From Spelaeicoccus albus (GTDB lineage Bacteria; Actinomycetota; Actinomycetes; Actinomycetales; Brevibacteriaceae), in contig NZ_JACBZP010000001.1 of the NCBI RefSeq assembly GCF_013409065.1, positions 2,108,001 through 2,172,000 on the forward strand: DNA of 64,000 bases, in the 5' to 3' direction. This document shows, piece by piece, positions 8,918 through 47,100 of this stretch. Numbering within the stretch: position 1 is the first letter of the stretch; each line of letters opens with the position of its first letter. A model generated the notes under the pieces. That model did no database searches, was not told the DNA's origin, and was given only the letters and a program-made list of their open reading frames with translations. The position numbers were made by a program, and so were the translations under genes.

Positions 8918-8974
8918 ATGCAAAACGAGCTTCTTGTAGTAATTAGAAGGCGCGCGGTACACCACCGACGCTGA
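8918..8974 (+). CDS. ilvBNC leader peptide
   Basis: An 18-codon frame, [18 protein letters not shown], too short for ordinary gene finding. Five consecutive codons (8930-8944) specify Leu, Leu, Val, Val and Ile, the three products of the pathway that follows. It lies directly after a TTGACA promoter and is followed by a terminator hairpin at 8993-9028. This is the classical arrangement of ribosome-mediated attenuation, and a comparable leader is known before ilvB of Corynebacterium glutamicum. Starvation for any of the three amino acids should stall the ribosome here and permit read-through into ilvB. Confidence 0.85.
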
Positions 8975-9028
8975 CGTTACTACCGTCCCGCGCGCCCCTT
9001 TTGAGAAAAACTCGAAAGGGGCGTTTTT
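8949..9028 (+). promoter_or_regulatory. ilvBNC transcription attenuator (antiterminator and terminator)
   Basis: Terminator: the arm at 8993-9005 pairs with 9011-9023 around an AAAAA loop (one G-U pair), followed by five T at 9024-9028. Competing antiterminator: GGCGCGCGG (8949-8957) is exactly complementary to CCGCGCGCC (8988-8996), which uses up the base of the terminator arm. A ribosome stalled at the Leu or Val codons would leave 8949-8957 free to form the antiterminator. A ribosome reaching the stop codon at 8972 would keep the two segments apart and allow termination. Confidence 0.82.
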
Positions 9029-9119: not shown

Positions 9120-10985
9120 ATGGTGACGCCAGACCAGCAGACGGGAGTGGCGCCCGCGCCGCGTCCCGCGGTCAAACCGGGTCCGCCGGGCGCACGCGCA
9201 GAGGCCGCGCCCGAAGAACTCACCGGAGCCGAAGCGATTGTCCGATCGCTCGAACTTCTCGGCGTCGACACGGTATTCGGCTTGCCGGGCGGCACGATCC
9301 TTCCGACGTACGACCCGCTGATGGACTCGACAAAGATCAGGCACATCCTGGTCCGGCACGAACAAGGCGCCGGTCACGCGGCCGAAGGGTACGCTACCGC
9401 CAGCGGACGAGTCGGCGTGTGCATGGCGACGTCCGGTCCGGGCGCGACCAACCTCATCACGGCCATCGCCAACGCACACATGGACTCGGTGCCGATCGTG
9501 GCGATCACGGGGCAGCAGCATTCGGCGTTGCTGGGCACCGACGCATTCCAAGAGGCGGACATCGTCGGCATGACCATGCCCGTGACCAAGCACAGCTTCT
9601 TGGTCAAGGACGCCGCCGACGTCCCGCAGGCGCTCGCGGCCGCCTTTGAAATCGCCGCGACGGGTCGACCCGGACCAGTCCTGGTCGACGTGACGAAGGA
9701 CGCCCAAACCACGCGGGTGCCTTTCCAATGGCCGATCGACCTCGACCTGCCCGGCTACCACCCCGTCACGAAGCCGCATTCGAAGCAGGTCCGTGAAGCG
9801 GCCCGGCTCGTGGCGGAGGCGAAGCGGCCCGTGTTCTACGTCGGCGGCGGCGTGGTGCGTGCCGGCGCCAACCGGCAGCTGCGCGAACTGGCCGAGCTGA
9901 CGAACATCCCGGTGACCACCACCTTGATGGCCAGGGGAGCGTTCCCCGATTCCCATCCGCTGCATCTGGGCATGCCCGGAATGCACGGCAGCGTTGCAGC
10001 GGTCACCGCCATTCAAAAAGCCGACGTGCTCATTTCGATCGGTGCCAGATTCGACGACCGGGTGACCGGCAAGCTCGATTCGTTCGCGCCGAACGCCACT
10101 GTCATTCACGCCGACATCGATCCGGCCGAGATCTCCAAGAACCGGATCGCCGACGTGCCGATCGTCGGCGACGCACGTGAGGTGATCGAAGAGCTCGGTG
10201 TCGAACTGTCGACCCACCACGCCGAGCAGCTGAAGCGCGAGCGGACGAAATGGTGGAAGTTCCTGGGCCGGCTGCTCGAGACGTACCCGCTGGGCTTCGA
10301 GGAACCGGACGACGGCACCTTGAGCCCGCAGTACGTCATCCAGCGCATCGGCGAGCTCGCCGGGCCGGAAGCCGTGTATGCGGCGGGCGTCGGCCAGCAC
10401 CAGATGTGGGCGAGCCAATTCATCGGCTATGAACGTCCGAACTCGTTCGTCAATTCGGGCGGCCTCGGCACAATGGGCTACGCCGTGCCGGCCGCCATGG
10501 GCGCCAAGGTCGGCCAGCCGGACCGGACGGTGTGGGCCATCGACGGCGACGGCTGCTTCCAGATGACCAATCAGGAACTCGCCACGTGCACCATCAACGA
10601 CATCCCGATCAAGGTAGCGGTCATCAATAACTCGTCGCTGGGGATGGTGCGGCAATGGCAGACGATGTTCTACTCGAGCCGCTATTCGAATACCGATCTC
10701 AACACCGGCACCGATACCGCGCATATTCCGGACTTCGTGAAACTCGCCGACGCGTACGGGGCCGCCGGACTGCGGTGCAGCCGGCCGGAAGACGTCGACA
10801 AGACGATCGAAGAGGCCATGAGCATCAACGATCGGCCCGTCGTCATCGACTTCGTCGTCCATCGTGACGCCATGGTGTGGCCAATGGTCGCGTCGGGCGT
10901 GAGCAATGATGAAATCCAGTACGCCACGGGCGTGCGGCCCAAGTTCGATGATGACGACGACGAGACGGGGGAAGAGCTGAAATGA
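9120..10985 (+). CDS. ilvB: Acetolactate synthase, catalytic subunit
   Basis: Condenses pyruvate with pyruvate or 2-ketobutyrate, the first common step of valine and isoleucine synthesis. The 621-residue protein has the catalytic Glu in [13 protein letters not shown], the FAD-binding middle domain, and the ThDP/Mg motif [15 protein letters not shown] ending in INNSS. An AGGAG site at 9108-9112 marks ATG 9120; the frame open to 9030 adds a Pro/Gly-rich stretch inside the leader and is rejected. The tail is unusually acidic ([13 protein letters not shown]). The stop overlaps the ilvN start by 4 bases (ATGA), so the two subunits are translationally coupled. Confidence 0.97.
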
Positions 10986-27359: not shown

Positions 27360-27453
27360 CCGAGTGGTGGCGAATGGCTGCCTACCCTCGCCGAGTGGTG
27401 GCGAATGGCTGCAAAATCTCCGATTTTGCAGCCATTCGCCACCACTCGGCGAG
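27360..27453. repeat. Palindromic intergenic repeat, copy A (half-site plus 32-bp perfect hairpin)
   Basis: Half-site 27360-27380 (CCGAGTGGTGGCGAATGGCT plus G), a 10-base spacer, then a perfect 32-bp stem: 27387-27418 pairs with 27422-27453 around the loop TCC. It lies between the convergent GntR and permease genes, where it could terminate both transcripts. Three more copies occur at 41967, 44219 and 46664. The remaining bases of this intergenic region show nothing else. Confidence 0.9.
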
Positions 27454-41966: not shown

Positions 41967-42056
41967 CCGAGTGGCGGCGAATGGCTGCCCCGGCTCCTCG
42001 AGTGGCGGCGAATGGCTGCGAAATCGACGATTTCGCAGCCATTCGCCGCCACTCGG
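41967..42056. repeat. Palindromic intergenic repeat, copy B
   Basis: Half-site 41967-41987, a 10-base spacer, then a perfect 27-bp stem (41999-42025 with 42029-42055, loop GAC) closed by a T-G pair. Compared with copy A, it has GGCGG with CCGCC instead of GGTGG with CCACC, and GCGAAATC with GATTTCGC instead of GCAAAATC with GATTTTGC, both compensatory. It follows the ilvE stop and may end that transcript. Confidence 0.9.
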
Positions 42057-44218: not shown

Positions 44219-44309
44219 CCGAGTGGTGGCGAATGGCTGTCCGACCCTGTCGAGTGGTGGCGAATGGCTGCGAAATCGCTGATTTCGCAGCCATTCGCCA
44301 CCACTCGAC
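44219..44309. repeat. Palindromic intergenic repeat, copy C
   Basis: Half-site 44219-44239, a 10-base spacer, then a perfect 29-bp stem (44249-44277 with 44281-44309, loop GCT). Near the base it has TCGAG with CTCGA where copy A has CCGAG with CTCGG, another compensatory change. It follows the TetR stop by 20 bases. Confidence 0.9.
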
Positions 44310-46210: not shown

Positions 46211-46618
46211 GTGAGTACCCCCTCGAGCCCCGACCGGCATCCCACCGATCCGGACGATCCTACTGGGCCGGCCATCCCGACTGGGCCGGAGGACGGCACC
46301 GAGCCCTCGGGCACCGGGGAAAAGCCGGTTATCGCGTGGGACGCCGCCGTGTCGGGTGCTCTCTTCGTGGCCCTCATCGTCGAGCAGGTCAAGCTTGTGC
46401 AGCGGATCACGCCGCCCACCGACTATTGGCTGCAGCAACCTTATACCGTCGCCAGCGGATTCCTCGTCTTTTTTGCGGCGGCGCTGACCTTAGTGCGAAT
46501 CAAGCTCCGACGCCTCAGCTACTGGATCATGTTGATCTCCCTGGCCGCGGTGCCGCTTGCCGTTGTGCTGTTCACGGCCTTGTACCTCCTGGGGAAGTAC
46601 AATCCGCCCCCGGAGTAG
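46211..46618 (+). CDS. Small membrane protein (paralogue 2)
   Basis: A 135-residue paralogue of the preceding protein with a longer polar N-terminus rich in Pro, Asp and Thr (about 35 residues) and three hydrophobic helices after WDAAVSGALF. The charged motif RIKLRRLSYWI before the third helix matches RVRRRRLAFWV in paralogue 1. It has its own -10-like box. Function unknown. Confidence 0.7.
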   Translation: MSTPSSPDRHPTDPDDPTGPAIPTGPEDGTEPSGTGEKPVIAWDAAVSGALFVALIVEQVKLVQRITPPTDYWLQQPYTVASGFLVFFAAALTLVRIKLRRLSYWIMLISLAAVPLAVVLFTALYLLGKYNPPPE

Positions 46619-46663
46619 CGACCATCGAGCATGAAAGCACCGAGGCGAACGGTCCTCAGTCGT

Positions 46664-46755
46664 TGCCGAGTGGTGGTGAATGGCTGCGAAATCGCCGATT
46701 TCGCAGCCATTCACCACCACTCGGCGAGGGCGGACAGCCATTCGCCGCCACTCGG
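46664..46755. repeat. Palindromic intergenic repeat, copy D (inverted)
   Basis: A perfect 29-bp stem (46665-46693 with 46697-46725, loop GCC), then a 10-base spacer and an inverted half-site at 46735-46755. The whole element is therefore in the opposite orientation to copies A to C. It has GGTGGTGAAT with ATTCACCACC, a further compensatory pair. The 482 bases between 46619 and 47100 contain this repeat and the cimA leader. Confidence 0.9.
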
Positions 46756-46843
46756 CGAAGCGAAAACGGGTGGAAAGTAGGACGTCCACGCGTGCCCGGA
46801 TTATGAGATGCCTCTGGGAATGCGGGCTCCGGGCTGGTTCAAT

Positions 46844-46879
46844 ATGGGTATGGCTCACATCACGGTCATTATCAGCTGA
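46844..46879 (+). CDS. cimA leader peptide
   Basis: An 11-codon frame, MGMAHITVIIS (or 9 codons from the second ATG at 46850), too short for routine gene calling. Three of its last six codons are Ile and one is Val. A -10-like TTCAAT at 46838-46843 would place the start point at the second ATG, so it may be leaderless. It is followed by a paired region and a strong terminator 222 bases before cimA, the committed enzyme of a route to isoleucine. The ribosome should stall here when charged tRNA-Ile is scarce. Confidence 0.78.
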   Translation: MGMAHITVIIS

Positions 46880-46948
46880 CGCACGCGCCGGGTCTTGAAC
46901 AGACCTCGCCACGTGCGTCAACCCTTCGCTGCCCGCGAAGGGTTTTTT
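46877..46948 (+). promoter_or_regulatory. cimA transcription attenuator
   Basis: Terminator: ACCCTTCGC (46921-46929) pairs with GCGAAGGGT (46935-46943), extended by A46920-T46944, followed by a T run to 46948. Upstream, TGACGCACG (46877-46885), starting at the leader stop, is exactly complementary to CGTGCGTCA (46912-46920), and GGTCT/AGACC forms a small inner hairpin. An alternative pairing of GCG..GGGT (46885-46893) with the first terminator arm could act as antiterminator. The terminator is clear; the switching partner is less certain than at ilvB. Confidence 0.75.
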
Positions 46949-47100
46949 GTTTGGCGGAACAGTTTTCCAAGGAACAGTGTGAAAGAACTTTGCTCGGCAA
47001 GGCGCACCACCGGGACACCACCGCAGCGCCGCCCGCGACACAATCGCGAGTCGGGCAATCGGCAGTCGCAGTACAACGCAGCAATGGAACGGATAGTCCG

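Follow-up and report, generated by a model that had tools for sequence, protein, structure and literature searches.

The window analysed here is a stretch of 64,000 nucleotides of the Spelaeicoccus albus genome (contig NZ_JACBZP010000001.1, positions 2,108,001 to 2,172,000 of the forward strand), and all coordinates are counted from its first letter. The genome has a size of 4.03 Mb, is a single contig, and contains one cimA gene. The cimA product, citramalate synthase, catalyses the first step of isoleucine synthesis by the threonine-independent route. The gene had been named cimA in a preliminary description of the locus, and a TIGR00977 score of 641 bits, above the 450-bit cut-off, bears this name out. 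Its start codon is ATG47101; an alternative start at TTG46951 would give a 589-aa ORF but was not adopted, since the homology begins near ATG47101. Upstream, an ORF on the same strand ends at 46618. A compact element consisting of a 9-codon ORF, a 9-bp stem, and a terminator occupies positions 46850–46948, upstream of cimA. The features of the locus are as follows.

46835..46843, + strand: putative extended −10 element, TGG-TTCAAT (inferred from relatives)
46850..46879, + strand: leader ORF, ATG GCT CAC ATC ACG GTC ATT ATC AGC TGA, encoding MAHITVIIS (sequence; isoleucine codons conserved in relatives)
46877..46920, + strand: stem 1, the proposed antiterminator (fold, covariation)
46920..46948, + strand: intrinsic terminator (terminator scan, fold, conserved in relatives)
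46859..46950, + strand: match of covariance model R1 (cimA leader), 51 bits
47101..48720, + strand: cimA, citramalate synthase, 539 aa (TIGR00977 and ORF)

The leader ORF contains three isoleucine codons (46859–46861, 46868–46870, and 46871–46873) and ends with the TGA stop codon at 46877–46879; an alternative start at ATG46844 would add MG to the peptide. Stem 1 consists of 9 bp formed between TGACGCACG (46877–46885) and CGTGCGTCA (46912–46920), and its 5′ arm begins exactly at the leader stop codon. The terminator has a 10-bp stem at 46920–46944, AACCCTTCGC-TGCCC-GCGAAGGGTT, and six T residues at 46943–46948. Base 46920 is common to both structures, which thus abut and have no long stretch to compete for. 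The sequence, the fold, and the terminator scan agree with the preliminary description, which had placed here a leader peptide ending in Ile-Thr-Val-Ile-Ile-Ser, a perfect 9-bp pairing starting at the leader stop codon, and a terminator hairpin with a T run; the distance of 222 bases to cimA given there is correct when counted from the leader stop codon, and the cimA start lies 152 bases past the T run. The fold of the 107-nt leader had an energy of −48.2 kcal/mol (z = −4.3), and none of 200 shuffled sequences folded as well. The R1 match at the window leader, which is itself one of the 40 training sequences of the model, was the sole match in the host genome at E values up to 0.01. No Rfam covariance model matched the cimA leader of the window or those of 13 relatives at E values up to 0.5, and the element therefore does not qualify as a T-box riboswitch.

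A simple sigma-70 scan near the window leader returned no site, and the extended −10 element emerged only after alignment of the relatives. In 117 of 121 cimA leaders, an in-frame start codon follows the end of an extended −10 hexamer (TGn-CAnnnT) at a distance of 6–8 nt. The search specified A at position 2 and T at position 6 of the hexamer; the upstream TG, which carried a minor scoring bonus, is present at 88%/84%. The hexamer of the window, TTCAAT, is identical to TATAAT at four of six positions and has T instead of A at position 2. It is followed after 6 nt by ATG46850, and ATG46844 falls in the spacer between promoter and start. The preliminary description had left the leader at 11 or 9 codons; because the extended −10 spacing of the relatives favours a start at ATG46850, the 9-codon reading is preferred. 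The transcript would then have a putative 5′ end at about 46850. The conservation of the extended −10 element beside the leader ORF argues for transcription from there and not from a site after 46948, and its position 6–8 nt before the start codon in the relatives suggests that the leader mRNA is probably leaderless. Leaderless mRNAs have been reported for leader peptides of S. lividans (PMC8079986). No clear −35 consensus was found in the cimA leaders of the relatives; their promoters show a strong extended −10 (GTGG-CAnnnT-G) and G-rich positions approximately 31–33 nt upstream of the hexamer.

Conservation of the element was examined in 181 cimA regions: 80 loci from public genomes, 20 relatives, 80 regions from class-wide sampling, and the window. 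The scan was codon-agnostic: a region qualified if a stem ended −3 to +4 nt from a terminator and an ORF had its stop codon near that stem. The layout was found in 134 of the 181 upstream regions and was absent from 47 by the same scan, the sensitivity of which is incomplete (of the five genomes of the class with a TIGR00973 leuA, it gave the layout in none, whereas the covariance model had detected one). At least two isoleucine codons were present among the five codons before the stem at 121 of the 181 loci, which are phylogenetically related, so that the counts do not represent independent events. In 900 dinucleotide shuffles of the cimA upstream regions, the layout turned up 17 times, in no case with as many as two isoleucine codons. 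Homologues that keep the hairpin and lose the isoleucine codons, named in the preliminary description as evidence against an attenuator, are nearly absent, since 133 of the 134 layout loci have at least one isoleucine in this stretch and one has none. Among the 121 leaders, exactly one codon separates the last isoleucine codon from the stem in 110, and the gap between the stem and the terminator is 0–1 nt in 104.

Stem 1 also shows covariation. In an alignment of 40 leaders, 10 of the 14 consensus pairs exhibited double changes, and the double-change cells numbered 68 compared with 19.5 in shuffles. The cells of stem 1 were paired in 93.8% of cases against 82.7% in shuffled alignments, and in at most 59% when the partners were slid by 1–3 columns. 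The leaders occur in two forms, in which the stop codon lies either at the stem base (IIIx-stop) or 10–16 nt inside the stem; an example of the latter is MIIGSRRAGPQ-stop in family f21 (6–11-Mb genomes), where the distance from isoleucine to the stem is unchanged. A genome of the same family as the window (G003), with a cimA 84% identical, has the same layout and the peptide VMHTTAISIT-stop. The rare codon ATT accounts for 133 of 295 isoleucine codons in the cimA leaders against 51 of 1539 in sampled cimA genes, and this excess suggests selection for slow decoding.

The R1 model was built from 40 cimA leaders, all of them isoleucine-bearing; the codon-agnostic scan is independent of that training. 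Applied to 297 genomes of the class, 231 of which possess cimA, the model gave matches in 187. Among the matches listed, 92 of the 93 checkable ones (those in a genome whose cimA position was also listed) are on the cimA strand, directly ahead of the gene at a distance of 28–235 nt. In a phylum-wide draw of 296 genomes, some of them from the same class, matches were found in 42; several of those in other classes (G108, G134, G145, G220, G263, and G326) lie, by their coordinates, just upstream of cimA. The predicted cimA switch occurs in much of the phylum Actinomycetota. In the family to which the window belongs (f1), a close cimA was found in one of 48 other genomes searched, and this scarcity suggests either that the main genus lost the gene or that two side genera acquired it.

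A module of the same build, composed of control codons, one further codon, TAG, a stem, and an abutting terminator, also precedes other genes. Before ilvB the control codons are, for example, CTC GTA CTT ATT (LVLI) or CTC GTC GTC GTT (LVVV), and before leuA they are CTG CTT CTC or CTG CTC CTT. The window itself contains a sister leader before ilvB.

8918..8974, + strand: leader ORF of ilvB (sequence)
8949..9028, + strand: ilvB candidate attenuator, with stem 1 at 8949–8960 paired with 8985–8996, and a terminator at 8994–9022 followed by a T run
9219–10916: ilvB (TIGR00118, 758 bits)

Stem 1 and the terminator of this ilvB leader overlap by 3 nt. The leader carries the LVVI codons also present in that of M. 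tuberculosis ilvB1. Counted over the five residues that precede the stem, the codon-agnostic scan gave 305 Ile, 54 Leu, and 41 Val at cimA, and 24 Val, 20 Leu, and 6 Ile at ilvB. As read from these sequences, the putative control codons follow the pathway: Leu, Val, and Ile at ilvB, Leu at leuA, and Ile at cimA.

The preliminary description had proposed an isoleucine-leader attenuator of cimA, and the comparison (121 of 181 loci, 0 of 900 shuffles, and covariation) strongly supports this proposal. We consider it highly probable that the element controls cimA by ribosome-mediated transcription attenuation and senses charged isoleucine tRNA. In the proposed mechanism, transcription would begin at ATG46850 or immediately beside it, with a ribosome trailing the RNA polymerase through the 9-codon leader. 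When isoleucyl-tRNA is scarce, the ribosome would stall on the isoleucine codons, the last of which is one codon away from stem 1. This stem would then form ahead of the ribosome and block the terminator in the RNA exit channel, allowing transcription of cimA. When isoleucyl-tRNA is plentiful, the ribosome would reach the stop codon and cover the 5′ arm of stem 1, so that the terminator would form and transcription would end near 46948. The blocking would come about because the stem 1 helix, lying against the terminator, keeps the lowest pairs of the latter from closing inside the RNA exit channel.

Ribosome-occlusion folding was carried out on the 121 cimA leaders with three footprint sizes. 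With the A-site on the first isoleucine codon, at least five pairs of stem 1 were kept in 118–121 of the 121 loci; with the A-site on the stop codon, fewer than five were kept in 121 of 121, with medians of 0–0.3. Since stem 1 is kept in the former state and lost in the latter, the model indicates that the position of the ribosome can report the isoleucine supply through whether stem 1 is formed. A biosynthetic gene must be expressed more strongly under starvation, and stem 1 is thus expected to counteract termination. Folding with and without a ribosome had been named in the preliminary description as a check. In the models, stem 1 depends on the ribosome, but in equilibrium folding stem 1 and the terminator are compatible and the terminator probability is approximately 0.97 in every ribosome state; the switch is therefore not visible from thermodynamics. 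An alternative antiterminator, pairing the leader with the 5′ arm of the terminator, was tried and rejected, since it reached −6.8 kcal/mol against −8.1 kcal/mol in shuffled sequences and is thus weaker. Because stem 1 barely overlaps the terminator, antitermination is probably steric or kinetic. With the overlap too small and no other antiterminator supported, a clash in the exit channel is the remaining option. An LVVI-bearing ilvB leader from the same class (L179), in which the same kind of stem directly abuts the terminator, lends support to this step by analogy; LVVI is the codon set on which, as mutation showed, the M. tuberculosis ilvB1 attenuator depends (PMC13236596).

The same attenuator could operate with stem 1 in another role, as a pausing or synchronising hairpin or as a stabiliser of the terminator by stacking, termination being controlled otherwise, e.g., by ribosome distance or Rho. 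The adjacency of stem 1 and the terminator and their compatibility in the fold fit such a role. However, feedback logic calls for something that suppresses termination during starvation; among the conserved structures found, stem 1 alone forms or not according to the ribosome position; and the 3-nt overlap in the ilvB leader of the window favours competition. We therefore regard this role of stem 1 as unlikely and prefer its assignment as the antiterminator.

Sensing of the general branched-chain supply, or of a slow-down of translation, rather than of isoleucine specifically would be in keeping with the valine codon of the window leader and with the fact that many relatives have a Leu or Val codon four positions ahead of the stem. 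The second and third codons before the stem, however, are Ile in 111 and 116 of the 121 cimA leaders, respectively, whereas ilvB leaders favour Val and Leu, and so broad a sensor appears improbable. Still less probable is a leader that works on translation or binds a regulatory protein instead of acting via transcription termination. A protein-binding role was once proposed for the LEU element of leuA, but in the cimA leader of the window a T run follows a strong intrinsic terminator 152 nt before the cimA start codon, the ribosome-binding site of cimA is outside the stem and the terminator, and codon identity tracks the pathway. That the terminator merely ends the upstream gene, whose ORF stops on the same strand about 300 nt away, and that the short ORF is a product of chance can practically be dismissed, as the isoleucine codons, spacing, and covariation are conserved across many families, the whole-genome model matches stand before cimA, and the layout with two or more isoleucine codons was never reproduced by shuffles.

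The attenuator reading of the cimA leader can be placed among known systems. In enterobacterial trp, his, and ilv attenuators, the antiterminator occupies one arm of the terminator. As in those attenuators, control codons of the cimA leader would couple the ribosome position to an intrinsic terminator, but the cimA stem shares at most a few nucleotides with the terminator or lies 0–1 nt apart from it. The window shows one shared base and no alternative antiterminator, and hence no arm competition of the trp type. The cimA leader is thus trp-like in its proposed action but is not classed as a trp attenuator, since the defining overlap is absent.

Attenuation of ilvB in Actinobacteria is already known (PMC1262725, PMC13236596). 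Leader peptides are also known upstream of leuA, trp, leuS, and other genes. In M. tuberculosis, starvation turns the ilvB1 genes on, and replacement of LVVI by AAAA in the leader abolished induction (PMC13236596). In S. coelicolor, mutations of the ilvB leader codons were without effect (cited in PMC1262725), a result that, by analogy, counts against the attenuator reading of the cimA leader. The ilvB leaders of M. tuberculosis (PMC13236596) and of Corynebacterium, Mycobacterium, and Streptomyces (PMC1262725, PMC8079986) share with the cimA leader a short ORF with branched-chain codons, a stem, and a terminator. The cimA leader differs from them in its target, in control codons that are almost only Ile, and in its short ORF, which in most relatives stops at the stem base. 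The LEU element upstream of leuA likewise has end-product codons and belongs to the same phylum, but it lacks an obvious terminator and its pairing involves the ribosome-binding site (PMC1262725), in contrast to the strong terminator of the cimA leader; protein binding was proposed for it since mutations of the leucine codons did not change regulation. The T-box before actinobacterial ileS (PMC1262725) responds to the charging of isoleucine tRNA, as proposed for the cimA leader, but binds the tRNA directly and without a leader ORF.

The cimA leader has an end-product codon cluster that shuffling did not yield, an intrinsic terminator between the leader ORF and the structural gene, and, after the control codons, a stem that a ribosome could open according to the covariation and the occlusion model. 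Judged from these sequence features, it is a predicted actinobacterial ilvB-type branched-chain attenuator with a new target, and a widespread one. No cimA attenuator was found in the literature searched (subscription journals being mostly outside the search), in Rfam, or in the 2005 survey, nor does the published list of eight S. lividans leader peptides contain one for cimA, in line with the preliminary description, which knew of none. What goes beyond that description is the phylum-wide occurrence of the element, the sister ilvB leader in the window, and the scant overlap of stem and terminator, which sets the antitermination step apart from the trp-type scheme, in which the two overlap.

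We further propose that one compact module (a leaderless mini-ORF, control codons, one spacer codon, and a stem abutting a terminator) is reused across Actinomycetota at cimA, ilvB, leuA, and perhaps ilvA/leuB with its codons exchanged, and that its stem blocks termination by a steric or kinetic clash in the RNA exit channel and not by arm capture; for this joint proposal we see the balance as even. If the abutting stem is the antiterminator, the attenuator is simpler than the textbook one. The cimA leader offers a specific, testable circuit for threonine-independent isoleucine synthesis in an industrially and medically important phylum, and the matched series of leaders (Ile at cimA, Leu at leuA, and Leu/Val/Ile at ilvB) could serve to relate codon identity, rare codons, and spacing to function. 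It may also aid annotation by revealing hidden leader peptides before cimA, e.g., in large Streptomyces-like genomes.

Several further occurrences of the module were observed. An LLLT-stop module precedes leuA of the TIGR00973 type at L147 (G497:C27) and L305 (G129:C182), and differs from the described actinobacterial LEU element in that the latter is terminator-less. At L149 (G589:C781), a module with ATG GCC ATT ACG TAG stands before a threonine-dehydratase-like gene, which suggests attenuation of the other route to 2-oxobutyrate. At L320 (G209:C9), a VIIIE-stop leader precedes a 3-isopropylmalate dehydrogenase gene approximately 2 kb upstream of cimA, and the two genes perhaps form one operon for isoleucine synthesis by the citramalate route. 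At L307 (G117:C156), CTT CTC GTC GTC GTT ACC TAG and an abutting stem precede a gene for a 205-aa protein that, by eye, looks like an isochorismatase-type hydrolase, an unexpected target.

The window also contains a family of palindromic repeats, GAGTGGTGGTGAATGGCTGCG and its variants, with 11 matches where none is expected by chance. The copies lie in four places, the first of which is just upstream of the cimA leader.

46644–46758: palindromic repeat copies
27362–27447: palindromic repeat copies
41969–42054: palindromic repeat copies
44221–44306: palindromic repeat copies

The family looks like a REP-like element.
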